In this document: piece after piece, positions 7,259-23,069 of the stretch
Layout of the letters: every line of letters begins with the position of its first letter
Numbering within the stretch: position 1 is the first letter of the stretch
Origin: a virus
DNA: 40,412 bases
Direction: 5' to 3' (one strand)
Virus record (IMG/VR): IMGVR_UViG_2209111019_000001
Coordinates: 1 to 40,412 of that record
Translations under genes and position numbers: made by a program
Notes under the pieces: generated by a model
Databases searched by the model: none
Told to the model about the DNA's origin: nothing
Seen by the model: only the letters and a program-made list of their open reading frames with translations

Positions 7259-7280
7259 CCTTGCGTTCAGACCTATTCAG
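7259..7280 (-). promoter_or_regulatory. CTGAATAGG motif, copy B
   Basis: Minus reading CTGAATAGGTCTGAACGCAA then GG; one mismatch from copies C and D. The stop codon of the sigma factor gene (TAG) is inside the motif. It lies 29 bp before the ATG at 7230. Confidence 0.65.
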
Positions 7281-8088
7281 CGGTGAGACCTTCCGGCGTG
7301 CCAGTGGCTCCCGCCAGATACAGCGCGCGGAACCGAACCTTCGCGTTTCGGCGCTGGCCGTAGATCTGCTGTGTGGTCACCCCGAGGTAGCTCGCCATTT
7401 CAGCGTCGGCGCCGTCGCCGAAATACGGGGTCGGGCCGGCAATGCCGTAGGTGCCGGAGAGGATCGCCCGCGCCTTCGTGCCCATCTTCCCTAGCGTGGC
7501 GTGTACGGCATCCTTGATCGCTCGCTGGCGCGCGCTCTCGCGATCCTTCGGCGTTTCCAGATCGGCCGGCAGCGTGGCGGCGAGGGTGGCACCAAGCGTC
7601 TCCCCGCTGCGCGAGCCGGGCATGTCCATCGACAGCGAGCCGGACCAAGACAGCCGCGCCGCGTGAGCCATCTCCGCGGACATCTTGCGGGCACCCATGG
7701 CGCTGCTGGCCGCGTGGCGCTCCGCTGCGATGGGGTCACCTCCGACAGCCACTAGCGCCGACTCGAAGTCCCGTGCCACTGCCACGCTGACACCCTGCCG
7801 CGTCTCGCTGACCCGGCTCGCCTCTATGGCGCTCCAAATCCTCTGGCTCATGTACGTGAAGAACTCAGCGACGCTGACCCCCTTGAACAGCGCCAGCGAC
7901 TCCCAGACGGCAATCCGGCCGATCTGCTCGAACTCCTCGATCAGCGATGCGGAGTTGCCGCCGGCGCCGGTCGCTGCCTTGCGCGCTAGGTTGGCCACGC
8001 GGTGCTCCATCTCGCGAAGCACGGCCGTCACTGCTTCCAGTTCGTTGGCCTGCGCGTCGCTGATCTGCTGCATGGTGAGGCTGATCAT
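7273..8088 (-). CDS. phage-encoded sigma-70 family factor
   Basis: 271 residues with the layout of a sigma factor. Residues about 49-90 match region 2 (LIEEFEQIGRIAVWESL, then FFTYMSQRIWSAIEAS), the core-binding and -10 recognition part. Residues about 148-175 resemble the region 3.2 linker (SLSMDMPGSRSGETLGATL). Residues about 190-257 look like region 4 with a helix-turn-helix (MASYLGVTTQQIYGQRR, NAKVRFRAL). It would redirect host RNA polymerase to phage promoters. ATG at 8088 has GGGAG upstream. The gene is bracketed by two copies of the CTGAATAGG motif, one about 33 bp before the start and one on its stop codon. It lies just below the DNA polymerase gene. Confidence 0.75.
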   Translation of the reverse strand: MISLTMQQISDAQANELEAVTAVLREMEHRVANLARKAATGAGGNSASLIEEFEQIGRIAVWESLALFKGVSVAEFFTYMSQRIWSAIEASRVSETRQGVSVAVARDFESALVAVGGDPIAAERHAASSAMGARKMSAEMAHAARLSWSGSLSMDMPGSRSGETLGATLAATLPADLETPKDRESARQRAIKDAVHATLGKMGTKARAILSGTYGIAGPTPYFGDGADAEMASYLGVTTQQIYGQRRNAKVRFRALYLAGATGTPEGLTAE

Positions 8089-8120
8089 GGTTGGTCGCTC
8101 CCGCCGCTAGTGGTGCTGGA

Positions 8121-8142
8121 CCTTGCGTCCAGACCTATTCAG
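8121..8142 (-). promoter_or_regulatory. CTGAATAGG motif, copy C (before sigma gene)
   Basis: Minus reading CTGAATAGGTCTGGACGCAA then GG, identical to copy D. CTGGAC and GTCCAG just inside and after it form a 6-bp hairpin. If the sigma factor reads this motif, the gene would be self-activating. Confidence 0.65.
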
Positions 8143-8398
8143 GGCAAGGGGCGACCAAGCAGAACCAGCCGTTCACCCTTGCCGGGTGGTGGCCGGATGG
8201 CTTGATCGAGGCCGTCCGGTGTTGCTCGAAAATGACCGTAGGCACGTGAAGAACTTGTGTCCACCGGTTGTGTGGGATGTGTGACCGTGTGGACGCCGTG
8301 AAGGTTGTGCAGTTTCTAAGGTTGTGACCCCGTGTACGCCTTAGGTATGACGGGTGGGGTGCCGCGCGGGGCTGCCGTTACCCTTCGGATGCAAGGAA
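8143..8398. other. 256-bp non-coding region with short direct repeats
   Basis: No ORF with a ribosome site. GGTTGTG occurs three times (8266-8272, 8303-8309, 8320-8326) and TGTGACC twice (8280, 8323), the latter followed by similar GTGT..ACGCC blocks. Clustered short direct repeats between the replication and sigma genes could be a replication origin or a regulator array. Nothing more specific is visible. Confidence 0.4.
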
Positions 8399-8465
8399 CG
8401 GCACCTTCCGTTCAAGCGGAGAAATTTCTCCGGTTAAGAATCGGTAACGTGAACGGAAGGTGCCG
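8399..8465 (-). terminator. long hairpin after DNA polymerase gene
   Basis: Perfect 15-bp arms (CGGCACCTTCCGTTC at 8399-8413 and its complement at 8451-8465) enclose a 37-bp loop that itself holds palindrome copy 3. It starts 6 bp beyond the polymerase stop codon. A terminator role is likely, though there is no good U-tract. Confidence 0.6.
8417..8432. promoter_or_regulatory. 16-bp palindrome operator, copy 3
   Basis: Perfect CGGAGAAATTTCTCCG inside the loop of the polymerase terminator, flanked by TTCAAG and GTTAAG. Confidence 0.7.
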
Positions 8466-8471
8466 CCGTCG

Positions 8472-10430
8472 CTACGCTGCGCGTGCGTACATGGCTTGAG
8501 CCGCTTCGGGATGCGCCGAAAAGTACGGGTCGTTGGCGATCAGCGAGGAAACGTCCGGCTTGCCCGCTGCGTTCAGCATGTACAGCGAGCCCCATGAGCG
8601 ACCGCCGATGTCACCATCCGCAGTGATCGGGACGCCTTCAAGATCCATGGTCATGCAGGAGACGAACTCGCGGCTGATCTCTTCGGCGTCGGCGACCGGC
8701 GCGAAGGCAAGCACCTCGTCATGGATCGGCAGACGCATATAGGGCAAAAGGCCCCGCTCTTCCATCTCCAACATTGCCTGCCCCAGAACGTCACGGGCCG
8801 CGCTCTGGCACTGATAGTTAACGACCGCGTACATACGGTCACGGTCCAGCGGGAGATGCCGGCCAGTCGCAGACACAGTCACCAGACCGTGCCCCCGCGC
8901 CTCCCGCTGCCACTTGCGCGAGCTTCGCCCAATCTCCGGGTACACGCGGTTGTAGATCTCACGTGCTCGCCGGACGTCTTCGACAGGCGCACCCGTCTGC
9001 GAAGCAATGTGCTCGGCTCCGCCTCCGTACACGGTGCCCAGGCCGATTGCCTTCGCGATCTTCCGCTCATACGGGCCCCAGTTGTCGCCAAAGACCAGCG
9101 AAGCCGTGTAGCCGTGCAGATCTTCGCCGCGGATCAGTGCCTCACGCATCCGCTTGACGCCCGCCAGCGCAGCGAGCACGCGCATTTCAACGGCCTGAAA
9201 GTCGGTGCTGAGCACCACGTGTCCGGGCGGAGCCATCAGGCAGCGACGGATCATCCAATCGCCGGACGGAAGCGTCTGCACAGCCGGCTTGGTGATGGAC
9301 ATACGGCCTGTCCGCGCTTCGAGCGTCTGTATATTCGCATGGATTTTGCCGCTGGCGTCCCGTTCGTTCAGGAACGTGTCGATATAGGCGGAGCGCCACT
9401 TACCCGCCCGCTGAGCGCGGAGCACGGCCATTGCCAGCGGATTAGGGGTGCGCGATCCGATCGGCTCCCATTTCTTGGTCACGTCGGCAAGGCCGCGCAG
9501 CACGTCACCATCGACGCTCAGAGACTTGCCGCTGTCTGTGAGCTTGGTCAGCGTCTCCCCCATGCCCCGCAATCCGGCGAGAATCTGCGCGTTTGAGTTG
9601 ACGCTGTCGACACCGAACGTCGCGGCAATCTCGCGATACTTCTCCCCTTCGGCGTCAAGGGTGTCGTACTGCTGCGCCGTGTATTCCTCGTCAACGTCCA
9701 TTCCGGCTCGCGTCATCAGCGCGCAGAGACGAGAAATCTCATGTTCGTAGCGAACCAGCGCCTTGCGCACCCCTCGCCGCTCAAGCTCAGCGAGATGGGC
9801 CACGCGGACACGGGATCCCAGGATGACGTCAAGCATCGCGTATTCCACGTAGATCGGGTGGTCCCACGGGACGTAATGCCAGCCCAGTCCGGATTTCTTG
9901 GTGTAGCCCAGAGACTTGAATACCGCTGTAAGCCCTTCGGACGTGTCAGGCGCAGCCGGATCCACGTAATGCGCGGCATGTGGCTTGAGCTGTGCGCCCA
10001 TTCCGCCGGCCATGACGCTGCGCGGATCGATCAGCTTCGCGGTAATCATGGTGTCAAGCGTCTTCGGGCAGAACTCTTCCAGCGGGATGCCCAGGTGTTC
10101 GTCAACGACAAGCCCGTCGAATCCGATGACGTTGTGCCCGCAGAGACTTGGCAGCAGACGGAGCGCCCAAGCTACGCACTCAGCGAAGGCGGGGCCAAGT
10201 TCTACGGGGACTACCCAAGCTTCCGTCTCGCTGCCGAATTGCGCCAGGCGCAGATAGCCGGGCCCGTGGCTGTAAAGCTTGAGCCCCTTTGACTCGGAGT
10301 CGAAACAGACAGGCTCACCGCGCTCCGCTGCCTTTAGAATCCATTGACGGAAGCCCCGCAGATCCTCCGGCCGTTCGCAGAGCCAGCCAACCCACGGAAC
10401 CCCGCCCAAGCTGCCGCTGTATTCCTTCAC
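8472..10430 (-). CDS. family A DNA polymerase with 3'-5' exonuclease
   Basis: Replicative polymerase of 652 residues. The N-terminal proofreading domain shows Exo I (FDSESKG, Asp44/Glu46), Exo II (GHNVIGFDG) and Exo III (YAMLDVI). The polymerase domain carries motif A (STDFQAVEMRVLAALAG), motif B (RKIAKAIGLGTVYG) and motif C (IHDEV). There is no 5'-3' exonuclease domain, as in phiC31 and T7-like enzymes. GTG start at 10430 with AAAGGAGAGCAC. It is coded downstream of the methyltransferase and primase-helicase genes and acts with the latter at the fork. It is followed by a long hairpin containing an operator-like palindrome. Confidence 0.95.
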   Translation of the reverse strand: MKEYSGSLGGVPWVGWLCERPEDLRGFRQWILKAAERGEPVCFDSESKGLKLYSHGPGYLRLAQFGSETEAWVVPVELGPAFAECVAWALRLLPSLCGHNVIGFDGLVVDEHLGIPLEEFCPKTLDTMITAKLIDPRSVMAGGMGAQLKPHAAHYVDPAAPDTSEGLTAVFKSLGYTKKSGLGWHYVPWDHPIYVEYAMLDVILGSRVRVAHLAELERRGVRKALVRYEHEISRLCALMTRAGMDVDEEYTAQQYDTLDAEGEKYREIAATFGVDSVNSNAQILAGLRGMGETLTKLTDSGKSLSVDGDVLRGLADVTKKWEPIGSRTPNPLAMAVLRAQRAGKWRSAYIDTFLNERDASGKIHANIQTLEARTGRMSITKPAVQTLPSGDWMIRRCLMAPPGHVVLSTDFQAVEMRVLAALAGVKRMREALIRGEDLHGYTASLVFGDNWGPYERKIAKAIGLGTVYGGGAEHIASQTGAPVEDVRRAREIYNRVYPEIGRSSRKWQREARGHGLVTVSATGRHLPLDRDRMYAVVNYQCQSAARDVLGQAMLEMEERGLLPYMRLPIHDEVLAFAPVADAEEISREFVSCMTMDLEGVPITADGDIGGRSWGSLYMLNAAGKPDVSSLIANDPYFSAHPEAAQAMYARAA

Positions 10431-10452
10431 GTGCTCTCCTTTGCGCAGCGAA

Positions 10453-10489
10453 AAGGGGCGCCCCCAGCGGTATGCCGGAAACGCCCCTT
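10453..10489 (-). terminator. hairpin after methyltransferase gene
   Basis: Arms AAGGGGCG/CGCCCCTT, 8 bp, in minus reading GGGGCG...CGCCCC followed by TTTTC. It lies 15 bp beyond the stop of the methyltransferase gene and before the polymerase ribosome site. Confidence 0.65.
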
Positions 10490-10503
10490 CGAGTGTCGGG
10501 TGT

Positions 10504-11139
10504 TCAGTTGCGCTGTGCGATAAACCTTTCGCCGACCCACTGCGTATACGCCGGCGGGATCATCTCGACCAGTTCCTCATGTACGTCTGTCCAGTCGATA
10601 CCCATTGCTTTCTGCATTTCCGGAACGGTGCCCTTGCCGCCACCCTTGCCGTACGCGGCTATGTACGGGCCATCCTGGTAAACACCGTGCCGCCAGCCTC
10701 GAACCTTGCCACGGTGCCGGAGGTGCTTGGGCTTTGATGTCTTCCAGCCCCCAAGCTCAATCTTCCGGTGCCGCAGCACACCAAGCCCGAACATTTCGCC
10801 GCAGAGAACGACGTCCGGTCGCGCGTAGGTGGTTTCTATGGCGTACGGCTTCCCGCTGCGCTCCAACAGCTCGCGCGTTTGCGGGTACAGGTTCGGGTAC
10901 GTGTCCTGTAGGTGCTTGTTGGTGCCCTTGGTGATGGCTGCGCCGTGCTGGCAGGGTGACGACGCGTGGACAAAGTCGGCGCTGCGCAGCAAATCGCCAG
11001 CGTCTAGCGCGTCCATCTTGACGAACGGAAACGGATAGTTCGGCTGATCTACGATATCGACGCCGATAACCTCGAACCCTGCCCGCTGGTAGCCAGTTGC
11101 CGCGCCACCAGCGTTGCAGAACAAGTCAATTACAAGCAC
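10504..11139 (-). CDS. C5-cytosine DNA methyltransferase
   Basis: 211 residues with the m5C methyltransferase signature. SAM-binding motif I is DLFCNAGGAATGY (residues 5-17), motif IV SSPCQ has the catalytic Cys63, motif VI is IETTYAR with Glu102, and FGLGVLRHRKIE matches motif VIII. The protein is short, with little room for a target recognition domain, as is common for phage orphan enzymes. No restriction endonuclease is nearby, so a role in shielding phage DNA from host restriction is likely. GTG start with AAGGTGG upstream. It lies between the primase-helicase and polymerase genes. Confidence 0.88.
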   Translation of the reverse strand: MLVIDLFCNAGGAATGYQRAGFEVIGVDIVDQPNYPFPFVKMDALDAGDLLRSADFVHASSPCQHGAAITKGTNKHLQDTYPNLYPQTRELLERSGKPYAIETTYARPDVVLCGEMFGLGVLRHRKIELGGWKTSKPKHLRHRGKVRGWRHGVYQDGPYIAAYGKGGGKGTVPEMQKAMGIDWTDVHEELVEMIPPAYTQWVGERFIAQRN

Positions 11140-11168
11140 TGGGCCACCTTAGTCTAGATAGCAGCGTG

Positions 11169-11384
11169 TTAGGCGCTTCCGCCCCCTGCTTCGGCAAATC
11201 GCTGCGGTGAGATTTCGCCGTAAGAGGCAGTGCCGTCAGCGTGAATGGTCAGTTCGAAAATCCGCGGGGTGTCGCACCACGAATGCGCTTCTGCGTAGGC
11301 GAGCACGCGTTGAATGTTCTTTATGGTGCCGTGCGCCTTCCACTCTTCGCGCCGCCACTTTGCGTAAGTGAGAAACCTGTCCAC
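11169..11384 (-). CDS. hypothetical protein, 71 aa
   Basis: GTG at 11384 starts just beyond the primase stop, with AAAGGA about 11 nt upstream. A helical, basic N-terminus (MDRFLTYAKWRREEWKAHG) leads to a segment, FELTIHADGTASYGEIS, with beta character. No domain is recognised. Its position right after the primase suggests co-expression in replication. Confidence 0.55.
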   Translation of the reverse strand: MDRFLTYAKWRREEWKAHGTIKNIQRVLAYAEAHSWCDTPRIFELTIHADGTASYGEISPQRFAEAGGGSA

Positions 11385-11387
11385 CGG

Positions 11388-13910
11388 TCAGCCGTCCTTT
11401 CGGAAGATTTTCGGATTGGCGTTACCCGTGCCAGCGTCAGCCAGGGCGACACCGACCAGCGCAATGCCCTTACTCGTCTTTTTCCGCTGCGCGCCTCGCT
11501 CCGCCATCGCGCTGTAAAACGTGTTGCGCTTCCAGATTTCCCGCGGCTGCAATCCTTCGGCCTCGCACCAATCGCGGTAAGCCGTGTACGCCTCATCACC
11601 CGGAGTTTGCGCGTCAGCGGCCGGCACCATGATCCCCGGGTAGAACCCCGCAAGCGCGTCAGAGGTTTCCCGGTATTCGCGCGTCGCGTTGGTGATTACC
11701 TCCGGGTCGCGGAGCCCCGACGCGTACCACTCGACAGCGCCACGGACAGCCCAAGCGGCAATCCCTTCGGCTTCCGCCAACAGCTTTGCGTCAAGCGTGT
11801 AGTCCCGTTCGGCTGGCGCGAACCAGCGGGTGAAGGGGATCAGCTTCACGCGGCGCCACAAGCCTTCATCCTGCCCGCGAAACTTCGGCTGATGGTTGGT
11901 CGCGAGCATGATCAGGAACGTAGGCCGGAAAGTGAAAAACTCTTGCCGCAGGAACCGCGCTTGCATCTCGTCCTTGCCGGTCGCGCGCTTGAGCACGCTT
12001 TCCGACATGGGTTTACCCGCCTCGCCTTCGCTGGCCATTACCAAGCGAGCCCCGCGGAGCGCTGCCAGATCGTTGGGGATCCCGCCGTTTGCCTTCTCCT
12101 CGAACGTCGCAAAGCCGGTGGTGCGTGTCACACCGCGAAAGACGTTTGTCAGTGTGTCCGTGGCTACGCTCTTGCCGTTCGCGCCCTTGCCCCACAGCAC
12201 AGCGAAGCACTGTTCATCTGTCTGGCCCGTGATGCCGTAGCCGCACAGCCGGCGGAAGTAGTCGCACAACTCCGGATGCTGCGGGAAGATCTCTTCGAGG
12301 AAGGCAGTCCAGCGAGGCGCCTCCGCATCAGCGACGTAATCCAGATCAAGGGCATACGTGATCATGTCTGCCTTGTCGTGGTCGCGAAGCTCTCCGGTGC
12401 GCAGATTCACGGTGCCGTTCCGGAAACTCAGCAGATGCGGGCGCGCGTCAAAGTCTGCGACGTCCACGTGGACACTGGGCACGGCGCGAAGCTCCCGCAT
12501 CAGCGAGTCGATATTGCGCGTCAGCGTGAAACCCTTTGCCGCCCGTGCGAGTCGCTTTCGCGCATCGTCGTCGCCGACTTCGCTCGCTGCTACGGCCAGC
12601 GCTGCCCCCATGTAGTGAACGGCCTGGCGCACACGCGTCTCGCTGCGCTCCCAAATACGGCCGTTCCACACATAGAAACCCAAGCCGGCCGCGTACTTGA
12701 TCCGGCCCCCCGTGAAGGTGACCAGCGCGTGCGCGTTGAGAACGTCGCTGCTGCCGTAGCGGGTGGCTAGCCTCTCCACCAACGCGACTGCCCGCGCTGC
12801 TTCATCTCCGCCCGGGATGAGCGCCCCCGTGTCTCCGTCGGCGCTGTCGCTGGCCGGATTTGCAACGGCGGGTGATGCACCACCATTCGTCCCGTCCGCG
12901 CTGCTTCCTCGAATGCCTTCGCGAACGCTGCCGCTTTCTCCCTCTCGTATCGGCTCTGCCGCTTTGACTGCCGAATGTAGCGCGCTTGCGAAGCCCGAAG
13001 GGTCACCCTCGCGCCACGCTGAAAGGTCGCTCGCTGCTCCGCCGACTGCCAGCGCGTGAACGGCAATACCGTACGGGCGCAATCCATCAGCAAGTGTGGT
13101 GTTGAATCGCTGCCCGGCGGCGTCCGAGTCCCCAGCGACGACAACCAACCGGTTGCGAAGCCCACGTGCCAGCTCCTCATGTAGTTCGGGTGACGTCGCC
13201 AGCGCGGCGCCACGGATCATGACTACGTCATAGCCAACGGAAAGCGCTGTGAGCCCATCTCCGGGCCCCTCCGTCACGATGACGACCGAATACCCGCCGG
13301 CACCCTGAAACGTCCCGTACGGCGCCCAGCGCTGCCCCTGCGGGTTAGTCAGCCCAACCCATCGCATTGCACAGCGGCCGGTAATGTCGCGCCCTTGCAA
13401 TCCACGGGCCACGCCATCGAATCCCAGGAACGGAACCGTGATGCGCGGGTAGCGCGTGAACGCAGCGGATCGGTGCTTGAACTGGCAGAGGTTCGCGGGA
13501 TCGTCGTCAAATCCGATGCCGAATTCCGCGGCGTCCAGCGACGTGAGACCGAAGCGGCGAAACAGGTACTCATCCGCTGCCTTGCTCTGCGGTAGCGCTG
13601 CTGACGTCGCCGCAACGTAGGCGGTAAGGTCCGCGATCGTCTCGCCGCTGATCAGCTCCGGACGCGCCTTCGGAACCACGGTCGCGTCAGCCTCCGCATT
13701 GAACAGGTCCGACCACGACAACCCTGCCGCCTTGCGGACATCATCCGTACTACAGCCGGCGCGACAAGTGAGCCGAACCTTTCCATCATCGCCGCACCAA
13801 ACCCGCAGAGACGGACGGGAATCCTGATGCGCCCCGCAGAGCGCCAGATATCCCCCGTCCGTCTCTTCCGAGACTTCGGCGAAGCGTTCGAGAATTGCCG
13901 TGAACTTCAC
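11388..13910 (-). CDS. primase-helicase (D5/P4 type)
   Basis: 840-residue fusion that would synthesise primers and unwind DNA. An N-terminal CHCC zinc site is formed by CGAH (about 25-28) and CRAGC (about 49-53). A Toprim domain carries VVIVTEGPGDGLTAL and VVVAGDSDAAGQRF, giving the catalytic Glu and DxD-like acidic residues. After a linker the C-terminal superfamily 3 helicase has Walker A WGKGANGKS, a Walker B-like LVMASEGE, sensor I FLIMLATNHQPKF and the arginine region GLWRRVKLIPF. The architecture matches the phiC31 primase-helicase and P4 alpha-type proteins. GTG start with AAAGGAACGTGT. Confidence 0.93.
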   Translation of the reverse strand: MKFTAILERFAEVSEETDGGYLALCGAHQDSRPSLRVWCGDDGKVRLTCRAGCSTDDVRKAAGLSWSDLFNAEADATVVPKARPELISGETIADLTAYVAATSAALPQSKAADEYLFRRFGLTSLDAAEFGIGFDDDPANLCQFKHRSAAFTRYPRITVPFLGFDGVARGLQGRDITGRCAMRWVGLTNPQGQRWAPYGTFQGAGGYSVVIVTEGPGDGLTALSVGYDVVMIRGAALATSPELHEELARGLRNRLVVVAGDSDAAGQRFNTTLADGLRPYGIAVHALAVGGAASDLSAWREGDPSGFASALHSAVKAAEPIREGESGSVREGIRGSSADGTNGGASPAVANPASDSADGDTGALIPGGDEAARAVALVERLATRYGSSDVLNAHALVTFTGGRIKYAAGLGFYVWNGRIWERSETRVRQAVHYMGAALAVAASEVGDDDARKRLARAAKGFTLTRNIDSLMRELRAVPSVHVDVADFDARPHLLSFRNGTVNLRTGELRDHDKADMITYALDLDYVADAEAPRWTAFLEEIFPQHPELCDYFRRLCGYGITGQTDEQCFAVLWGKGANGKSVATDTLTNVFRGVTRTTGFATFEEKANGGIPNDLAALRGARLVMASEGEAGKPMSESVLKRATGKDEMQARFLRQEFFTFRPTFLIMLATNHQPKFRGQDEGLWRRVKLIPFTRWFAPAERDYTLDAKLLAEAEGIAAWAVRGAVEWYASGLRDPEVITNATREYRETSDALAGFYPGIMVPAADAQTPGDEAYTAYRDWCEAEGLQPREIWKRNTFYSAMAERGAQRKKTSKGIALVGVALADAGTGNANPKIFRKDG

Positions 13911-13944
13911 ACACGTTCCTTTCTGGCTTCGCCGCGCGGCTGCG

Positions 13945-16159: not shown

Positions 16160-16174
16160 CACGTGTGGAATAAG

Positions 16175-16210
16175 AAGGGGAGGCTCCGCCAGTTAGCGAA
16201 GCCCCCCTTT
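16175..16210 (-). terminator. imperfect hairpin terminator
   Basis: On the minus strand AAGGGGGGCTTCGC and GCGGAGCCTCCCCTT pair with one or two mismatches. It begins 3 bp beyond the stop at 16213 and ends in CTTCTTATT. Confidence 0.7.
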
Positions 16211-16212
16211 CA

Positions 16213-16482
16213 CTACGCCACCCCAGATCGGATCAGCCGCACATGTTCCGTGTAAATCCACTGCGCCCGGAGGCTGCGCCGTGCCGTAAACCCGGATTCC
16301 GACCCCGTAGGGCGGACTTTGAGCAACGGCACAACGCGCCTACCCTCGCGCCGTGTGGTGACTTCCAAAATGATGGCGTCCGTGACGCGGGTGCGGTTGC
16401 CCTGGCGCGTGGCGTAGTTGATCAGATCACCGGGCCGCAGTTCTTCGCCGGCATAGTCCGTAACTACGCCACGCTTGCCCAC
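16213..16482 (-). CDS. hypothetical protein, 89 aa
   Basis: Basic, beta-rich protein: EELRPGDLINYATRQGNRTRVTDAIILEV suggests a small SH3-like or KOW-like barrel. The GTG at 16482 lacks a strong ribosome site, and it lies 5 bp beyond the preceding stop, so it may be translated by coupling. Function unknown. It is last before a terminator in the operon that includes the RDF gene. Confidence 0.6.
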   Translation of the reverse strand: MGKRGVVTDYAGEELRPGDLINYATRQGNRTRVTDAIILEVTTRREGRRVVPLLKVRPTGSESGFTARRSLRAQWIYTEHVRLIRSGVA

Positions 16483-16487
16483 GGGGC

Positions 16488-16781
16488 TTACGCCAGATCG
16501 TCAGCGGCCACGGCCAGAAGCTCACGCTCCCAGTCAGCCAGGGGCTCATCCGCCGCAGGCTCCGGCTCCGGCTCCGGCTCCGCCTCGCTGTCCCACGTGG
16601 CGTAGACGAATTCGCCGTTCTTCGCCGAAGTGTCGACGGGAGAAACCAGGATGTCAGCGGGAGTGCCGCCGAACCTGTCCGCGAACACCTTGCGAGCCTT
16701 CGCGCGGCCGGTGGTGACGATCAGGGCCGACTCAACATCGCCGGCCGTCGCACCCTTGTTGTGCACGTTGTACATGGCCAT
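16488..16781 (-). CDS. hypothetical protein with acidic Glu-Pro repeat
   Basis: 97 residues; ATG at 16781 with AAGGAAACCCCC. The N-terminal part, including ALIVTTGRAKARKVFADRFGG, is mixed helix and strand. It is followed by a Glu-Pro repeat (EAEPEPEPEP) and an acidic helix. An acidic flexible tail may mimic DNA or bind a basic partner; that is speculation. No family recognised. Confidence 0.6.
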   Translation of the reverse strand: MAMYNVHNKGATAGDVESALIVTTGRAKARKVFADRFGGTPADILVSPVDTSAKNGEFVYATWDSEAEPEPEPEPAADEPLADWERELLAVAADDLA

Positions 16782-16810
16782 GGGGGTTTCCTTCTCTCTC
16801 CTGTTTTCCG

Positions 16811-16999
16811 TTAGGAAAACTCGGGATCGCCGATTTCCTCGGCAACGTTCTGGAAGCGGACTCGCCGCTGTCGTACGACGTGGGGCCGCTCTTCCGGGGT
16901 GAATTCCCAGAGCGGCCGCAACACGTCAGCATCGGGCAGTACAGCGATGTACACAGCGGGATCACGGAGCACGCTGCCCGGAACATACGTCGTGCCCAC
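16811..16999 (-). CDS. hypothetical protein, 62 aa
   Basis: GTG at 16999 with GGAGTAACCAA upstream. The short sequence reads like a beta protein (TYVPGSVLRDPAVYIAVLPDAD) followed by an acidic tail. It follows the RDF-like gene by 4 bp, so it is co-translated. No motif for function. Confidence 0.55.
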   Translation of the reverse strand: MGTTYVPGSVLRDPAVYIAVLPDADVLRPLWEFTPEERPHVVRQRRVRFQNVAEEIGDPEFS

Positions 17000-17003
17000 T
17001 TGG

Positions 17004-17738
17004 TTACTCCGCTACTGCGTCGTTGTACGACCGGATGCGCTTGAGCTCCGGGTAGTTGTACTGAACCAGCGTGCCGGCCAGCTTCCCCTTCTTGATCGTG
17101 AATTCCACGGGAACGATGGTCAGTTCGGCCAGGGCTTCGCCGCCGATGTCCGACAGATCTTCCTCGAACTGGTGGAAGATCTCCGCGGTGTTCCATGAGG
17201 CGGTCTGGATCTTGAACTCACCAAGCTCGGGGTCATCGGCGAGCCGGAACGTGAAGGTGATGGAAGGCTTGGGCCCGTCCTCATCCTTCGCAGCCTGCTT
17301 GCGCTCCGCGAAGCTCGCAGGGCAGCCGCACAGCGTGCCGATCTTGTCGTCGTCCGACGGGTGGGAGAGGAAAAACTCTCCGTCGCAGTGGTGCTTGAGC
17401 TTGCCGTTGACCCACTGCTTGCCGTCCATGTAGATGGACTTCGGGCCGGCGAGGATGATCGGCACGCTCTTGCGGTCCGTGAAAACGTCGATGTGCTGCT
17501 CTGACGCGCTCTCCTCGTTGTCCACAATGGACCCGTTGAAGAGCTGAGCAACAGCAGCGGCCACAGCGGGGTCACCGGTCGCCACGCGCCACTCCTGCAA
17601 GGACTCAGGAATCATGCGCTTGGACTTCTCATCGAACACCTGACGGCCGGCGGAGAACTTGCCCACCGTGTCGTCCGAGTACTCGGAGCGCCGGTCCTTC
17701 TTCGCGTCGGGGTCAGTCTCAAAAATCTTGAAAGCCAC
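17004..17738 (-). CDS. recombination directionality factor (phiC31 gp3-like)
   Basis: A 244-residue protein matching what I remember of phiC31 gp3 in length and pattern: FETDPDAK, SEYSDDTVGKF, PESLQEWRVATGDP near the N-terminus, a CGCP motif in the middle, then FRLADDPELGEFK and a C-terminal half with VEFTIKKGKL. In phiC31 this factor binds integrase and switches it to attL x attR excision. GTG at 17738 with GGAGAGAAC is chosen; an ATG at 17768 adds ten residues with no better site. It lies about 13.5 kb from int, as an early gene, downstream of motif copy D and a strong hairpin, so excision would follow lytic induction. Confidence 0.75.
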   Translation of the reverse strand: MAFKIFETDPDAKKDRRSEYSDDTVGKFSAGRQVFDEKSKRMIPESLQEWRVATGDPAVAAAVAQLFNGSIVDNEESASEQHIDVFTDRKSVPIILAGPKSIYMDGKQWVNGKLKHHCDGEFFLSHPSDDDKIGTLCGCPASFAERKQAAKDEDGPKPSITFTFRLADDPELGEFKIQTASWNTAEIFHQFEEDLSDIGGEALAELTIVPVEFTIKKGKLAGTLVQYNYPELKRIRSYNDAVAE

Positions 17739-17774
17739 GTTGTTCTCTCCGCTTCGCGTCGCAGACATGGGAAA

Positions 17775-17809
17775 GGGGCCGAACGGGTTACCTCGCGCCG
17801 TTCGGCCCC
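17775..17809. terminator. strong hairpin before RDF gene
   Basis: Perfect 12-bp arms (GGGGCCGAACGG and complement) with an 11-nt loop; the minus reading ends CCCCTTTCCC. It stands between motif copy D and the RDF start, so it either ends the upstream operon or attenuates RDF transcription. Confidence 0.75.
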
Positions 17810-17831
17810 TCTGTGTTTCGCTGTCAGTAGT

Positions 17832-17853
17832 CCTTGCGTCCAGACCTATTCAG
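17832..17853 (-). promoter_or_regulatory. CTGAATAGG motif, copy D (before RDF gene)
   Basis: Minus reading CTGAATAGGTCTGGACGCAA then GG, identical to copy C over 22 bp. The TGA stop of a 26-residue gene is inside the motif. About 94 bp before the RDF start. Confidence 0.65.
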
Positions 17854-17930
17854 TGCGGCTGCGGACACTGACCCCGCATGCAGCCGTGCGTGTAGCAGTA
17901 ATCCGGGCTTCGCTCATCCGTCTCACTCAT
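17850..17930 (-). CDS. 26-aa zinc-site micro-protein
   Basis: ATG at 17930 overlaps the previous stop (ATGA) and has AAGGCGAAGCC upstream. The product has CYTHGCMRGQC, a compact set of three Cys and one His that could hold a zinc ion. Its TGA stop lies in motif copy D. It is short, but the coupled start and motif support it. Confidence 0.5.
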   Translation of the reverse strand: MSETDERSPDYCYTHGCMRGQCPQPH

Positions 17931-18151
17931 GGCTTCGCCTTCCACGTGCACTCAGGCAGCGGGACGGCTGTGTATTCCAGCTCTTCCACGCTGATTGACT
18001 TTGTGCGACCGGCCCATCCGCGGCGACCCTTGTACCCCGCAACGCTGCGCCGCATGGTGGTTTCGCCCTGAACTAGATGTGTCTCTGTGCTGCTCCCGCC
18101 GTACCGGGGCACGCTCTCTACCGTGATGCGGAACATGCGGGCATCGCTCAT
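17927..18151 (-). CDS. hypothetical protein, 74 aa
   Basis: ATG at 18151 overlaps the ligase stop (ATGA), with GGAGGTGGCTACGCC upstream. Basic protein with a beta start (RMFRITVESVPRYGG), an Arg/Lys-rich middle (MRRSVAGYKGRRGW) and an acidic strand near the end. It may bind nucleic acid. Coupling to the RNA ligase gene suggests the two are needed together. Confidence 0.55.
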   Translation of the reverse strand: MSDARMFRITVESVPRYGGSSTETHLVQGETTMRRSVAGYKGRRGWAGRTKSISVEELEYTAVPLPECTWKAKP

Positions 18152-19008
18152 GGCGTAGCCACCTCCCACTTTCCGGCGTCGTTGGCGTCAAGCGTTGCCT
18201 TGAAAACCTTGCGCGAGGCGTGATGGAACACGCACACGCCTTCGGGGTTGGTGAAGCCCGGGGCTGCCACGGAGCCGTACGCGGCCAGCGAGCGAAGGCA
18301 TTCGTCCACCTTCGCCGTATCGAACGGACCCCGGTAGAGAACGGGCACAGCGTCAACGGGCACGCCGCCAACGCACTGGGCTATGCCGGCACCCTTGTCG
18401 GTGTTGAACAGCGAGAAACGCCGATCACCGTTCGCGTAGCCGTATCGGCGCTGAATGCCGCTGCCCCACCATTCGCCGTAGTGGATGCCGGGGCCAAGCA
18501 GGCTCGCAAGCTCGCTCGCGTTGTCCCACACCCAACGGGCAAAGCCGTAGTTGTCGGCATGCGGCGTAACGATGCGCTTACGCGACTGAGCGAACACAGC
18601 GAGCCGCGTACCGTCCGCAGCGAACGCAACCGGCACGGGATCATTGATTACCGCGCCAGCGGGAATCGGCCGGATCGCGATAGCCGCATTGGTGCCGTCG
18701 ATTTTCTCCGTGACTGTGATGTCTCGGAACAGGCGCGGCGTCTTGGGCCACTCCTCGAAGCTGTGTAGCGGCGTCTGCGGGGCTGGCGCAAGTGCGGCGG
18801 CAGTATCCCGCCAGGACGTGTCCGCAGTCTCTACAGCGCCCGTCCAGCCGTCCCGCTGGCCCCATGGGGAGCCAGTCTCGCGGTTGACAGCGGCAGTGGC
18901 CGGCCCCCGGTGATAGTACGGACCGACCACATGTGAGACGGAGCCATCAGCGTTGCGGATCACAGCGCGAAAGACTGCGTCCGTCTCATACCCCATTGCG
19001 CGCGACAC
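18148..19008 (-). CDS. RNA ligase (Rnl2-like) with N-terminal extension
   Basis: 286 residues. The nucleotidyltransferase core begins near residue 90: motif I TEKIDGTNAAI holds the Lys that would be adenylylated, AQSRKR lies in the next conserved block, HYGEWWG fits motif III, NPEGVCVFH motif IV and RKVFKATLD motif V. Such enzymes seal RNA nicks and are used by phages such as T4 to repair tRNAs cut by host defences. The first 90 residues form a separate unrecognised domain with GPYYHRGPATAAVNRETG. GTG at 19008 with GGAGGTGCCTGCCA. The phage also encodes several tRNAs. No kinase-phosphatase partner was seen. Confidence 0.8.
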   Translation of the reverse strand: MSRAMGYETDAVFRAVIRNADGSVSHVVGPYYHRGPATAAVNRETGSPWGQRDGWTGAVETADTSWRDTAAALAPAPQTPLHSFEEWPKTPRLFRDITVTEKIDGTNAAIAIRPIPAGAVINDPVPVAFAADGTRLAVFAQSRKRIVTPHADNYGFARWVWDNASELASLLGPGIHYGEWWGSGIQRRYGYANGDRRFSLFNTDKGAGIAQCVGGVPVDAVPVLYRGPFDTAKVDECLRSLAAYGSVAAPGFTNPEGVCVFHHASRKVFKATLDANDAGKWEVATP

Positions 19009-19207
19009 TGGCAGGCACCTCCGTCAGCGGGCCGAAGCCTTCGGCGACCACAGCGACCCAGCTAGGTCGCAGCAGAAACACAGACGCCGGGATTCCGTCC
19101 GGGACGGATGTTGGGTCGTCGCGAACCAGCGTCCAGAGATCTCCGTCAGCATCGCGATAGACGACACCTTCGCGGTAGGTGACCCCATCGTGCGTGGCAG
19201 TCATCAT
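18986..19207 (-). CDS. hypothetical protein, 73 aa (GPLTEV family)
   Basis: ATG overlaps the preceding stop (ATGA), with GGAGGTAGCTGACGC. It has a DADGDLWTLV strand pair and ends EGFGPLTEVPAS. The preceding gene product has DRDGRVWRPTG and GHGPLTEV, so the two share a repeated beta module, probably by duplication. Function unknown. Confidence 0.65.
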   Translation of the reverse strand: MMTATHDGVTYREGVVYRDADGDLWTLVRDDPTSVPDGIPASVFLLRPSWVAVVAEGFGPLTEVPASVARNGV

Positions 19208-19728
19208 GCGTCAGCTACCTCCGTCAGCGGTCCGTGGCCACCGGCCAGAATCATGTCCCGGGTGGACCGGTTGTTGGGGTTGCCGAGATAGGTGTAATAC
19301 GGCTCGCCAGCGTCGTTGCTGCGTCCCGTAGGGCGCCACACCCTCCCGTCTCGATCGCGCAGTGTCGGGGGCTTCGCCGTCTCGTCGCTGACGCGCTCCC
19401 ACTGCTTCGTCTCGCTGGTGTTTGCGTACGCGTCTTCGACCTTGCCGCGGATGAAGTACGCCAGGAACACCCTGCCGTCCGGATAGATGGCCATCACGGT
19501 ATAGACGATCCTGTCTGGGGTTCCGCCGCGCATTGCGATGCGGTCGCCGACCTTGAACGGCCATGGCTCCACGTAGGCGCTCACAGCGGACGGTGGCGCG
19601 TGATACGCGTCCAGCTTCCCGGACCGGTAGTAGACGCGCCCGTCAAGCTCAGCGAGGAAGTAGCGCGGCCGGCCGTCAGCGTTGATGCCCGCAACCTCGA
19701 TCCGGTCACCCGTCTTGAACTCAGGCAT
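19204..19728 (-). CDS. hypothetical beta-rich protein, 174 aa
   Basis: ATG at 19728 with GGAGGTGAAGCCGA. It has two similar units: KTGDRIEVAGINADGRPRYF with GRVYYRSG, and KVGDRIAMRGG with YPDGRVFLAYF. A C-terminal module, RDGRVWRPTG...GHGPLTEV, is shared with the next gene. This suggests tandem small barrels. No enzymatic motif. Its start overlaps the previous gene by 8 bp. Confidence 0.65.
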   Translation of the reverse strand: MPEFKTGDRIEVAGINADGRPRYFLAELDGRVYYRSGKLDAYHAPPSAVSAYVEPWPFKVGDRIAMRGGTPDRIVYTVMAIYPDGRVFLAYFIRGKVEDAYANTSETKQWERVSDETAKPPTLRDRDGRVWRPTGRSNDAGEPYYTYLGNPNNRSTRDMILAGGHGPLTEVADA

Positions 19729-19888
19729 TCGGCTTCACCTCCGCGGGAGTAGTGGTCGAGTAACGCAGGATCGCGCCGCGCACGTGAACTTCGCCGGTGA
19801 AGCCCTTGCGGAATCGCGGGAGCTGGTCGGCCGGCCCGTTGTGCACATGCCGCGTGGCTGCCGCCGTAAGGCCCTTGGGAAGGAACAT
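19721..19888 (-). CDS. hypothetical protein, 55 aa
   Basis: ATG at 19888 (MFLPKGLTAAATRHVHNG) overlaps the TGA of the membrane peptide gene by one base (TGATG), with AGGCAGG upstream. The longer open frame to 19978 is rejected because it would cover that gene. Basic and His-containing; no family recognised. Confidence 0.55.
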   Translation of the reverse strand: MFLPKGLTAAATRHVHNGPADQLPRFRKGFTGEVHVRGAILRYSTTTPAEVKPNA

Positions 19889-20028
19889 CACTTGCCTGCC
19901 TCTCGGAACATTGCGAGTACCTGTCGAAGTTCGGCGACGCTGCCGCCAAACAGGATGTAGAACAGCAGCCATGCCCACCCGACAACGTCAGCGGCGAGCA
20001 CCACAAGAATCCAGATCTGCCAGCTCAC
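19888..20028 (-). CDS. 46-aa membrane peptide
   Basis: The GTG at 20028 follows the nuclease stop directly (TGA GTG), with AGGGG upstream. The product starts VSWQIWILVVLAADVVGWAW, has a hydrophobic stretch of about 26 residues and ends with a charged amphipathic tail (VAELRQVLAMFREAGK). One membrane span with a cytoplasmic tail is likely. Coupling on both sides supports it being real. Confidence 0.6.
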   Translation of the reverse strand: MSWQIWILVVLAADVVGWAWLLFYILFGGSVAELRQVLAMFREAGK

Positions 20029-20871
20029 TCACTTGCCCCTTCGCTGTGTTCCGGTGATGACCTTGCGTGCGCTGCCGGCAACGGGCTTGCCCAGTGCTTC
20101 GCGCATTTCTTCGCGCTCCCAGCGGTAGATCCGCAGCAGCGCCAGGAAGACGTCAAACGTCGCGTCGTCGACAACAGCGGGAATGAGTGACCACTGTTCC
20201 GGCGTGATGTGCAGCACGAATCCGCGGTCGATTTTCGGCATCGGACTTCGCGTGCCGTCAGCGTGGCGAATGTAGTCCGCCCGGCTGTACGCGGTGAGCT
20301 GTAGCGACACCTCCGCGTGCGGATCCTTTGACGTCTTCCAGTCGTCCATGGTGAGAACTGGCGTCGAGGTGCTTCGCCGCATCGGATCCGGCTCGCCATT
20401 CTCATCAAGCCAGATGCGCAGGATTGCGTCAAAACTGCCCGCGTAGCCGTGCGTGTCGGACCATGCGACGTCTTCGGCGTGAACTAGCTCCGGGTTACAC
20501 ACGCGCATGAAGTCGGCGAACTGCCGGCGGTACTTGACCATGTCCGCTGTGATCCGCTTGACTTCCTCGCCGCGAATCATCCGCTCGAACATGTCGTGTG
20601 CGTCGCTGCCGATCTTGCTACGTGCGTCGGTATAGCGAGGCGCCGCGCCAGCCAGATACCTGATCGCGCCCTCGCGATCGTTCTCCGCCATCCGCTGAAT
20701 GAACTCCAGCGAGTCGACAGCGAGGGAGGCAGCTTCCCGGGCGTACCAATACCGGAGAAACGCCTTGTCCTTCATGTCAATCACGGTTGTTACGCCGGGG
20801 CGCCTGTCCGTCGGATTTTCGCTGTCGAAGTACTGACGGCGTCCCCCCGTTTCCTCCGTGTGTACTGCCAT
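20029..20871 (-). CDS. RecB/Cas4-like PD-(D/E)XK nuclease
   Basis: 280 residues. The nuclease motif set is present in order: helix with KIGSDAHDMFE, then GYAGSFDAIL (metal Asp), TMDDWKTSK (D-x-K core) and SLQLTAYSRA (QxxxY). This is the pattern of RecB and Cas4-type exonucleases, used by phages in recombination or in degrading host DNA. ATG at 20871 with GGAGCACCTACGG. It lies first in an operon, directly below motif copy F and copy 2 of the 102-bp element. No single-strand annealing protein was recognised nearby. Confidence 0.82.
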   Translation of the reverse strand: MAVHTEETGGRRQYFDSENPTDRRPGVTTVIDMKDKAFLRYWYAREAASLAVDSLEFIQRMAENDREGAIRYLAGAAPRYTDARSKIGSDAHDMFERMIRGEEVKRITADMVKYRRQFADFMRVCNPELVHAEDVAWSDTHGYAGSFDAILRIWLDENGEPDPMRRSTSTPVLTMDDWKTSKDPHAEVSLQLTAYSRADYIRHADGTRSPMPKIDRGFVLHITPEQWSLIPAVVDDATFDVFLALLRIYRWEREEMREALGKPVAGSARKVITGTQRRGK

Positions 20872-20897
20872 CCGTAGGTGCTCCTGTCTCTCACCTA

Positions 20898-20920
20898 CCT
20901 ATGCGCGCAGAGCTATGCAG
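20898..20920 (-). promoter_or_regulatory. CTGAATAGG motif, degenerate copy F
   Basis: Minus reading CTGCATAGCTCTGCGCGCAT then AGG keeps most positions of the consensus (CTG, ATAG, TCTG, CGCA, AGG) at the same spacing. It lies between the 102-bp element and the nuclease gene, the same order as copy A. Confidence 0.4.
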
Positions 20921-20938
20921 CGGGCCGGAGCCGGAGCC

Positions 20939-21040
20939 GATGACGTATGACGTGTTGGACACCCGATCCGGGTTACTCCTACAGAACTTATTTTGTATAG
21001 GTGGATCGGAAGTACTGTCTAAAACGTCATACGTCATCAC
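20939..21040 (-). repeat. 102-bp dyad promoter element, copy 2
   Basis: Matches 1715-1816 at all but one of 102 positions; here the terminal arms are perfect 14-bp inverted repeats, GATGACGTATGACG (20939-20952) and CGTCATACGTCATC (21025-21038). TAGACA (21016-21021) and TATACA (20994-20999), 16 bp apart on the minus strand, form a promoter toward the nuclease operon. It lies just beyond the terminator of the 412-residue gene. Confidence 0.65.
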
Positions 21041-21066
21041 CCCTCGCCGCTGCCCGGGCACACAAA

Positions 21067-21105
21067 AGCGCCCCCACACGGACATTGCATCCGAATGGGG
21101 GCGCT
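21067..21105 (-). terminator. rho-independent terminator
   Basis: Perfect 10-bp arms AGCGCCCCCA/TGGGGGCGCT, 19-nt loop, then TTTTGTG in minus reading. It ends the 412-residue gene. Confidence 0.85.
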
Positions 21106-21124
21106 ACGCTACGCAGCTACACGG

Positions 21125-22363
21125 TTACAGCTTGGCAGCGTCCGCGATCAGCGTGGTAGCCAGATCGGTGAGCCGCTGCTTCGCGTCGGCCCGCTCCTTG
21201 CCGCTCAGCTTGTCGGCCCCGCTGACTGCCAGGCCGATCAGGCTTTGCGCGCTGTCTACACGCTTGGTCACGCGCTCCGCGATTACCTTGGTGCTGTCGC
21301 CCGGTGCGTCCGCCTCGCTGCCGGCACCTTCGGCTACCTTCGCTGCTTCCAGCGCCTTTTCCCGCGCCCGCTCCGCCTTGATCTCCCTTTCCGACTTGCG
21401 AGGCAGCGACAGACCCCGCCCCTCGTACGCCGCGTACACGGCTTCCGACAGCGAGCCTTCCTCCGGCAGTTCCAGCATGGGGAAGTGCTCCGCCACGATT
21501 TCGTGGTCGCTGTTGTCCAGCGCGCGAAGCCAGTCCACCAGAATCGTTGAAAGCTGGTAGTTGACCCCCTTGCGGACGCTGTCCAGCGCGGACCGCTTGT
21601 CGACGTCGTCCACCGGAACATCTGCCATCGACTGAGCGTTGATTTCCGCAATGATGTCCCGATAGCCCTTGGACGTGGCAGTCAGGTCCGGGAGGCCAGC
21701 GCGGTTGCGGGCAGCGAGACGCAGCTTGAAATAGATTTCCGCCACTGCCCGCGCGCTGCTGCCCGTCGCCAACATCTGAGTTGCGGAGTCGCGCATCTTG
21801 GCTACGCTCTCGCTGATCAGCGATTGCGCGTCCGGGATCGAGTCGATATCCGACGTTTCGCCGGTCGCCACGTCCGTTGACGGCAGCGGAATGCGGTTCG
21901 CGGCGTTCAGCGCACGGCGCAGGCTCGCCTTTTTCGCCGCTGCTCCGCGACCCTTGATCTTGGTGCTGATCAGCTCCTCGGTCTCAGTGGCCAGCGCGGC
22001 AGCGGAGTCAGCGTTGCCTTCCTTCCGCAGCGTCACTACGCGCTCCGTGTTGGCGCTGATCTGCACCTCAACGTCGTCACCGTCTGTGAGTACGGCGTCA
22101 CTCTTGGGCATGGCGTCCCTTTCGATGGTGGGACTTCCCATGGTGTCAGACTGGGCACCCGCCGTCAACTTGGCTTCCATGTCATCGCTGACTCTCACGC
22201 AACTGGCGCAGCGGGGAAGGTCGGCGCCCTTGATCCCGTGTGTAGCAACCTTGCCGCACAGCGTCTTCGGTTCGCCGTCGCGAACCAATTCGTGAGAGAT
22301 TGCTCCCTCGCCGATCGCGCCGAACATGTCATGCGGTCCGAACGCTGCAAGTACCTGAGTCAT
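21125..22363 (-). CDS. 412-aa protein, candidate immunity repressor
   Basis: Unrecognised protein with a short N-terminal metal-site pattern (KTLCGK, then LPRCASCVR), an acidic linker, and a long mainly helical body. The segment AKMRDSATQMLATGSSARAVAEIYFKLRLAARNRAGLPDLTATSKGYRDI, about residues 195-245, could hold a helix-turn-helix. The C-terminus is Lys/Glu-rich and helical. ATG at 22363 with GGAGAGAGGCGGGGCC. It is a monocistronic unit with its own terminator, a perfect -35 TTGACA and a 16-bp palindrome just upstream, as expected of a self-regulated repressor. No sequence match confirms this; it could also be a structural or replication accessory protein. Confidence 0.5.
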   Translation of the reverse strand: MTQVLAAFGPHDMFGAIGEGAISHELVRDGEPKTLCGKVATHGIKGADLPRCASCVRVSDDMEAKLTAGAQSDTMGSPTIERDAMPKSDAVLTDGDDVEVQISANTERVVTLRKEGNADSAAALATETEELISTKIKGRGAAAKKASLRRALNAANRIPLPSTDVATGETSDIDSIPDAQSLISESVAKMRDSATQMLATGSSARAVAEIYFKLRLAARNRAGLPDLTATSKGYRDIIAEINAQSMADVPVDDVDKRSALDSVRKGVNYQLSTILVDWLRALDNSDHEIVAEHFPMLELPEEGSLSEAVYAAYEGRGLSLPRKSEREIKAERAREKALEAAKVAEGAGSEADAPGDSTKVIAERVTKRVDSAQSLIGLAVSGADKLSGKERADAKQRLTDLATTLIADAAKL

Positions 22364-22399
22364 GGCCCCGCCTCTCTCCGTCGATGGGACCAGCGTGCA

Positions 22400-22427
22400 G
22401 CCGGCCCCGCTTCGCTGTCAATACAAC
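22400..22427 (-). promoter_or_regulatory. promoter for the 412-aa gene
   Basis: On the minus strand a perfect TTGACA lies within 10 bp of palindrome copy 5; the -10 box is weak. A repressor on the palindrome would contact or occlude this promoter. Confidence 0.4.
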
Positions 22428-22443
22428 CGGAGAAATTTCTCCG
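22428..22443. promoter_or_regulatory. 16-bp palindrome operator, copy 5
   Basis: Perfect core, 5 bp beyond the dNMP kinase stop and 65 bp before the start of the 412-residue gene. Flanked by GTCAAG and GTTGTA. Confidence 0.7.
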
Positions 22444-22448
22444 CTTGA

Positions 22449-23009
22449 CTACGCGCCCTGCGCCAGCGCGTCAACCGCTTCGCGCAACTCAGCGAGGGAG
22501 CCGGCGTTGTTCAGGGTCACGTCACACGGGTAGTCGTCTAGCTCCGTCTCGCTGGCATGGGTCGCGGTGCTCCCGCTGTTGGGTGAAGCCTCCGGGCGGA
22601 TGATGCGAACCAGCTTGAAACCGCGCTTCCGCAGGGTCCGCGCTTCGTTCAGATACCGCACGTCCGTAACAACGACCGGATCCGGCGTCGCCCTGTACTT
22701 GCGCAGCAACTCGAAGAGCCAGAACGAGGGGTCAAGGTCGCGCACCCCCTGTCCGAAGTGTTGCAGCACGCGCCGAACCTCCGGATACTCGTCCTTCGCG
22801 CTGTCCCACCCGTCAGCGGCGACGATCTCAGACAGCCGGTAGTACCCGAACACGCTGTCGTGGTACACGATGGGGTCCAGCTTGAGCGCAGCCTCTTTCA
22901 GCGGATCAGCGAAGGCGAGCCGCACATAATCGTGCGTTTCGCAGAGCCGTGCGGCAGCAGTGTCCTTCCCGCTGCGCATCTTGCCGATAAGTGCGATGTC
23001 ACGCGGCAT
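22449..23009 (-). CDS. deoxynucleoside monophosphate kinase
   Basis: 186 residues. P-loop GKMRSGKDT (residues 9-17), LAFADPLKE, and VVTDVRYLNEARTLRKRG, followed by a segment HASETELDDYPCD typical of phage dNMP kinases. It would phosphorylate dNMPs to supply dNTP synthesis. ATG at 23009 with GGGGG seven nt upstream. That ribosome site is the 3' arm of a perfect hairpin, so translation may be blocked when the hairpin forms. Motif copy E lies just upstream. Confidence 0.9.
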   Translation of the reverse strand: MPRDIALIGKMRSGKDTAAARLCETHDYVRLAFADPLKEAALKLDPIVYHDSVFGYYRLSEIVAADGWDSAKDEYPEVRRVLQHFGQGVRDLDPSFWLFELLRKYRATPDPVVVTDVRYLNEARTLRKRGFKLVRIIRPEASPNSGSTATHASETELDDYPCDVTLNNAGSLAELREAVDALAQGA

Positions 23010-23016
23010 GAAAATG

Positions 23017-23056
23017 CCCCCTAGTCGCCATGATTGGTGTCATGACTACTAGGGGG
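23017..23056 (-). terminator. hairpin that includes the dNMP kinase ribosome site
   Basis: Perfect 9-bp arms CCCCCTAGT/ACTAGGGGG with an inner CATGA/TCATG stem. In minus reading the 3' arm GGGGG is the ribosome site of the kinase gene, followed by CATTTTC. It may end the late operon or control kinase translation. Confidence 0.6.
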
Positions 23057-23069
23057 CAGACCTATTCAG
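23057..23069 (-). promoter_or_regulatory. CTGAATAGG motif, copy E (short)
   Basis: Only the 5' 13 bp CTGAATAGGTCTG are kept; the rest is replaced by the hairpin arm. Lies between palindrome copy 6 and the dNMP kinase gene. Confidence 0.5.

Follow-up and report, generated by a model that had tools for sequence, protein, structure and literature searches.

A one-strand repeat in a distant phiC31-like phage, very probably a promoter element read by the phage sigma factor

Genes, sigma factor and element copies in the window

The window analysed here, by which we mean the whole stretch of DNA, is a linear IMG/VR record of 40,412 bases with 62.7% G+C. Its minus strand carries the gene order of phiC31, namely dNMP kinase, exonuclease, RNA ligase, RDF (Gp3-like), primase, DNA polymerase I, sigma, serine integrase and tRNAs. 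At the nucleotide level the window resembles named phages only over about 220 bp of RDF (in Streptomyces phages Heather and phiBT1), and the phage is therefore best regarded as a distant member of the phiC31 group. The genes that matter most for the analysis are:

22449-23009, minus strand: dNMP kinase gene
20029-20871, minus strand: exonuclease gene
17004-17768, minus strand: RDF gene, Gp3-like
7273..8088, minus strand: gene for a sigma-70-family factor of 271 aa, homologue of phiC31 gp12 (tblastn to phiC31, BT1 and TG1 gp12; PHROG sigma, E=2e-42)
6862-7230, minus strand: gene next after sigma

tRNA T-arm-like sequences, GGTTCGAATCCATC and GGTTCGATTCCGGG, occur on the same strand at 6499-6560 and 1240-1300; they were not called by ARAGORN and are possibly degenerate or unusual tRNAs.

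The preliminary description had taken the 271-aa protein for a sigma-70 family factor, and this assignment is upheld by several independent comparisons. Apart from the PHROG match and the homology to gp12, which is already annotated as a sigma factor in RefSeq, a PDB search with a profile of 45 relatives aligned residues of about 11-96 (region 2) to FliA, SigB and RpoS, and profile positions 191-262 (region 4) to RpoD/SigA (E=1e-8). Pfam Sigma70_r2 was matched by 41 of these 45 relatives; the window protein on its own did not match it. The AF2 model (pLDDT 90) has helices at residues 73-96 (region 2.3-2.4), 102-149 (sigma-3-like) and 180-262 (sigma-4), and its best Foldseek matches to solved structures were sigma factors (probability 1.0, TM about 0.4, a value that reflects the independent movement of several sigma domains). 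Judged by region 2, region 4 and the modelled fold, the protein is a member of the sigma-70 family. Its identity to the homologues of 15 annotated phages is 29-43%, and the gene lies downstream of DNA polymerase I in all annotated phages compared. Single-protein searches of viral and genome contigs found no relatives; a query with the alignment found 84, of which 80 were kept.

The repeated element is present in six copies, given here with the transcription starts predicted below:

8123..8142, minus strand: copy upstream of the sigma gene; CTGAATAGGTCTGGACGCAA exact; predicted start 8114, leader 26 nt
17834..17853, minus strand: copy upstream of the RDF gene; CTGAATAGGTCTGGACGCAA exact; predicted start 17825
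7261..7280, minus strand: copy overlapping the 3' end of sigma, upstream of gene 6862-7230; CTGAATAGGTCTGGACGCAA with 1 mismatch; predicted start 7252
1670..1689, minus strand: copy between the integrase and the tRNA array; CTGAATAGGTCTGGACGCAA with 2 mismatches; predicted start 1661
23050..23069, minus strand: partial copy upstream of dNMP kinase; first 13 bp exact (23057-23069); predicted start 23041
20901..20920, minus strand: degenerate copy upstream of exonuclease; predicted start 20892

All six copies claimed earlier on the minus strand were thereby recovered (four near-identical, one 13-bp partial and one degenerate), most of them 2 positions away from the coordinates first given. Their positions also bear out the statements that each copy lies upstream of a gene or unit and that the sigma gene is bracketed by two of them (8123-8142 and 7261-7280): a start codon follows 20-70 nt downstream of every copy, that at the tRNA array excepted, and all are on one strand. 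Stop codons had been noted within copies. The TAG of sigma (7273-7275) indeed lies inside copy 7261-7280, but those in the other copies are uninformative because the motif itself contains TGA and TAG.

CTGAATAGGTCTGGACGCAA had no match in 100 dinucleotide shuffles. The weaker copies were scored with a weight matrix built from the four strong ones, which gave 19.0 for the partial copy (23057-23069) and 14.5 for the degenerate copy (20901-20920). Top scores in 20 Markov control sequences averaged 11.7 and reached a maximum of 16.6, so that the partial copy is significant and the degenerate copy is not on score alone. Further backing for both comes from their position (phiC31, too, has repeats before dNMP kinase and exonuclease) and from a pyrimidine-purine step whose offset is common to all six copies. 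No copy was found before primase or polymerase in the window, though relatives have them there, and the exact window motif had no match in IMG/VR.

A 102-bp block occurs twice (1715-1816 and 20939-21040), 99% identical and 19 kb apart, each time just upstream of a promoter copy (tRNA junction; exonuclease). It has inverted arms GATGACGTATGAC / GTCATACGTCATC at its ends and an TATACAAAAT-like sequence within. Blocks of their own sequence are found at the same two places in phiC31, BT1, TG1, Shawty, Lilbooboo and Rowa.

Predicted start, element dialects and covariation with sigma

The pyrimidine-purine (Y-R) step lies exactly 9 nt after the 18-nt core CTGAATAGGTCTGGACGC in six of six window copies; at the neighbouring offsets it is seen in none. 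Given a background of 0.27, six of six in a fixed register has a probability of about 4 in 10,000. At the corresponding offset the step was present at 64% of sites in the phiC31 clade (101 sites), 71% in RemusLoopin, 79% in Heather and 67% in Rowa, compared to a background of 27%. None of 62 phiC31-clade sites has a G at the base 20 nt after the CCGACTCCCTT start, and all have a purine at the next base. As judged by this sequence signature, the step is probably the transcription start, which would place the element at about -28 to -11 and give leaders of 21-57 nt to the start codons of the window protein genes. No conserved -35 box was found at the element, although the sigma factor has a region 4. 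The register of the window motif against other dialects depends on the Y-R spacing, and this motif is among the most divergent.

The predicted start of the dNMP kinase promoter falls inside a second feature, picked out by eye and unscored:

23016..23057, minus strand: terminator-like hairpin GCCCCCTAGT..ACTAGGGGGC, then TTTT, fused to the partial promoter copy

The merging of this promoter with a terminator-like hairpin and T run (23016-23069 in the window) is also seen in TG1 (L017, 16791). Going by the sequence, read-through RNA would terminate here and RNA begun inside the hairpin would not.

The window element has no match in phiC31. The repeat of that Lomovskayavirus, GGTTGCCGACTCCCTTAC, sits before genes 46, 52, 1, 2, 3, 9a, 11, 12, 13 and 25 and a tRNA gene, and we take these repeats to be its mapped, lytic-only early promoters. 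Six phiC31 sites, at g52 (dNMP kinase), g1, g3 (RDF), g12, g13 and the tRNA, match the six window sites. The suggested equivalence to the phiC31 early promoters thus holds for the genes served, the single strand and the six corresponding sites, whereas the phiC31 consensus itself is absent; the window promoters may be called early by analogy with phiC31 only. Both phages have homologous sigma genes in the same place and one-strand repeats before the same genes, but the elements (GGTTGCCGACTCCCTT in phiC31, CTGAATAGGTCTGGACGC in the window) are almost completely different, the window has fewer copies, and its sigma factor has 271 aa versus 396 aa in phiC31.

Most other phiC31-like phages examined have a repeat of their own, on one strand, some 50 nt ahead of the sigma start codon as well as before other equivalent genes. 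These dialects include:

GTCACCGACTCCCTT: phiC31 clade
GGCATTCGACTCACT: Rowa
GGAATCCCCTCCGCTC: RemusLoopin, Heather and Sebastisaurus
TTAACCCACTCACTC: Shaeky/Sycamore type
GTCACGGCCCCCAGTG: Attoomi

Further dialects beyond these five types were found in other phages. For the window and four other phages a whole-genome k-mer search was uninformative, being dominated by codon repeats, and the region upstream of sigma was used as an anchor instead; with the search so anchored, no clear repeat was found in some IMG/VR loci. RemusLoopin, Sebastisaurus, Heather and Rowa have tandem elements, 19-21 bp apart, upstream of their tRNA/late junction (L007:40657/40676, L008:40942/40961, L009:40528/40547 and L012:41135/41156). 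With only six copies in the window, one might ask whether the repeats are due to chance, or are mobile repeats or replication or packaging sites. We find this hardly credible, given the empty shuffles, the single strand, the location upstream of genes, and the recurrence before the same genes, with a different sequence, in dozens of phages. When the viral contigs were all scanned for the phiC31-clade core and those above 35 kb judged, the 11 near-full-length contigs with at least two core copies all encoded the sigma; the motif without a sigma gene, named beforehand as a refuting case, was not encountered.

Coevolution of motif and protein was analysed in the 69 phages for which sigma, polymerase and primase were available. 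Motif distance correlated with sigma distance at 0.72, compared to 0.48 for polymerase and 0.40 for primase; the partial correlations were 0.62 (p=0.001), 0.13 and -0.11, respectively. Across variants of the test the partial Spearman coefficient ranged from 0.62 to 0.71 for sigma (permutation p=0.001), from 0.07 to 0.19 for polymerase and from -0.14 to 0.00 for primase. Because the sigma promoter adjoins the sigma gene, the test was repeated with the primase promoter, which lies beside primase and 4.6-8 kb from sigma, and the values were 0.59 for sigma (p=0.001), -0.01 for primase and -0.03 for polymerase (n=58). This promoter was found by its likeness to the sigma promoter of the same phage (at most 4/16 mismatches), a selection that may inflate within-phage likeness, but not the preference for sigma over primase. 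Neither omission of the Attoomi group, whose register was set by hand, nor dereplication (to 42 or 14 phages) overturned the result. No positive partial correlation was seen for RDF, ThyX or the gene following sigma (-0.10 to -0.14), sigma keeping 0.64-0.77 beside them. A partner protein working with sigma could nevertheless contribute to the signal.

Within sigma the signal peaks at residues 81-111 and 121-143, corresponding to the last sigma-2 helix and the sigma-3-like helices. Twenty-one sigma columns exceed the 99th percentile of polymerase columns, 13 of them being 81, 85, 89, 92, 93, 96, 97, 109, 113 and 130-133. Such peaks in region 2.4 and the sigma-3-like domain are what one would expect if the factor read an element at -28 to -11 directly.

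Alternatively, the repeats might bind another phage regulator, a repressor or activator acting on nearby host-type promoters. phiC31-like phages do carry a second repeat family, a palindromic repressor operator, and the window has seven intergenic copies of a CGGAGAAATTTCTCCG-type palindrome (starts of GAGAAATTTCTC at 5247, 6614, 8419, 16146, 22430, 23093 and 36121), one of them, between polymerase and sigma, inside the loop of a 15-bp inverted repeat. They probably correspond to the conserved inverted repeats that serve phiC31 as repressor operators, and in that phage CCTACTCACGTGAGTAGG-type sites occur about 15 times. The element, in contrast, is asymmetric and oriented, has a start signature at a fixed offset and tracks sigma but no other tested protein (the repressor, outside most loci, was left out), and we consider binding by another regulator improbable.

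Since element and factor change together across about 70 related viruses, the element very probably forms the core of promoters at which host RNA polymerase initiates with the 271-aa gp12 homologue as its sigma factor. The proposal that the motif is a promoter read by the phage's own sigma factor is strongly supported by the single strand, the spacing to genes, the N9-Y-R signature, the sigma fold and a coevolution that goes beyond neighbours and linkage. Counting against it are the small number of window copies (only six, one of them degenerate), the lack of any before primase or polymerase, the divergence of the window motif and the missing -35 box. In the mechanism that we infer for the holoenzyme, region 2.4 and the sigma-3-like domain would read the element, and transcription would begin at a purine preceded by a pyrimidine, 9 nt downstream of CTGAATAGGTCTGGACGC. 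The sigma gene would stand under its own promoter, creating positive feedback, and the same sigma-dependent promoter would drive the next gene, RDF, exonuclease, dNMP kinase and the tRNA/late junction, presumably with the timing suggested by phiC31.

The inverted repeat at the sigma promoter

The copy before the sigma gene is enclosed by an inverted repeat:

8091..8158, minus strand: inverted repeat with the sigma promoter between its arms; 5' arm at 8148-8158; 3' arm at 8091-8102, over the Shine-Dalgarno sequence

Folding of read-through RNA over this repeat gives -40.8 kcal/mol (z -4.5), whereas RNA that begins close to the predicted start remains open. In most relatives the 5' arm likewise lies just upstream of the element and the 3' arm over the Shine-Dalgarno region, the arm sequences differing (CCCTAGGTC, CTCCTTCGG, CCGTTCCGGG, CCTTCCGG, CCTCCGG and CTCCGCG; TGGTCGC in the window). 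Stems of at least 7 bp were formed by 57% of own arm pairings, compared to 10% when arms came from different phages. The mean unpaired probability of the Shine-Dalgarno region at 74 loci was 0.26 in read-through RNA versus 0.58 in RNA starting 27 nt before the gene; the window values were 0.20 versus 0.58 for the local start. The polymerase promoter folds similarly; this is far less so for primase and holds in part for other promoters. As pairing is seen at a subset only, the idea of a hairpin at each promoter was rejected.

We infer from the sequence that the inverted repeat silences translation of read-through sigma RNA. In such RNA the ribosome-binding site would be hidden in the hairpin, whereas RNA begun at the sigma promoter would lack the pairing with the 5' arm and leave the site free. 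The hairpin would thereby keep run-through transcripts from triggering the self-amplifying sigma loop. An arrangement of this type is found in T4 genes e, soc and 49, where the promoter lies in DNA encoding the 5' strand of the ribosome-binding-site helix and only RNA begun at that promoter is translated well (PMC3014915). The window resembles gene e in that the site is predicted to be paired in read-through and free in local-promoter RNA, with covarying arms. It differs from the T4 type in that the inferred hairpin guards the sigma gene itself (in some phages other genes too), and does so in an actinophage.

The symmetry of the arms around the promoter would also suit a DNA-level operator for an autoregulator. 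We regard such an operator as doubtful, as the arms vary among phages with matching changes, the 3' arm usually lies over the Shine-Dalgarno region, the z-scores of the RNA folds are low and RNA begun at the promoter leaves the site open. The 3' half of the element pairs, in several phages, with the ribosome-binding site that follows it, which raises the question of whether the repeats themselves act in RNA, as processing, antitermination or ribosome-binding elements. This is highly improbable, because the element is present at all promoters and the pairing at a subset only, and because the main transcript, with its predicted start downstream, would not contain the element.

A scan for the sigma-70 consensus before the sigma gene found nothing. 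A looser Streptomyces-type matrix gave candidates clustered about 160-240 nt upstream of sigma, only slightly above shuffles, including one weak but suggestive site:

8235..8263, minus strand: candidate host-type promoter TGGACA-N17-TACGGT upstream of sigma

CRP/GlxR-like sites (TGTGA-N6-TCACA, 9 or 10 of 10) occur upstream of the sigma promoter in 28% of loci versus 0.5% of random stretches, about 75-103 nt before the sigma start codon (L027, L038, L057, L068, Shaeky L010, Rowa L012, TG1 L017 and others). Such a site is absent upstream of the window sigma promoter. Where present, it may be a host nutritional input into the phage sigma gene.

Relation to known systems and significance

Phage sigma factors with private promoters, such as those of SPO1 and T4, are an established kind. 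Closest in outline are gp36 of phiEco32 and gp47 of phage 7-11, sigma-70-family factors that direct the host core enzyme to phage-specific promoters, with transcription beginning 6-9 bp from the element; these relatives differ in sigma and promoter at similar genome positions, and the 7-11 sigma gene is preceded by a hairpin, a CUUCGG-type stem-loop that was not described as covering a ribosome-binding site (PMC8948821). They share with the window phage their own sigma factor and, going by prediction in the latter, a private promoter set and (in 7-11) a hairpin before the sigma gene, but they are unrelated phages with short AT-rich elements serving middle and late genes. They also make up two cases, whereas the phiC31-like phages offer a graded series of dialects. 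In the open-access literature we found no record assigning the phiC31-type promoter family to gp12, nor one of a dialect series with a residue map or of the sigma-promoter hairpin.

Taken jointly, the observations favour, by a modest margin over even chances, a series of matched sigma-promoter dialects in phiC31-like phages. Each promoter would be about 18 bp long, without a -35 box and read mainly by region 2.4 and the sigma-3-like domain. Orthogonal pairs would diverge as all the promoters of one genome changed in concert, and sigma would be self-gated by a promoter within a hairpin, giving a sharp lytic switch.

For phiC31, the model Streptomyces phage on which many genetic tools are based, the analysis names a likely and directly testable activator of its phage-specific promoters. 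The dialects would provide high-GC hosts with dozens of sigma-promoter pairs, ready-made and probably insulated from one another, and would also serve as a data set for learning how sigma residues set promoter sequence. Finally, the hairpin points to a way in which a phage may keep read-through from setting off its self-amplifying sigma factor.
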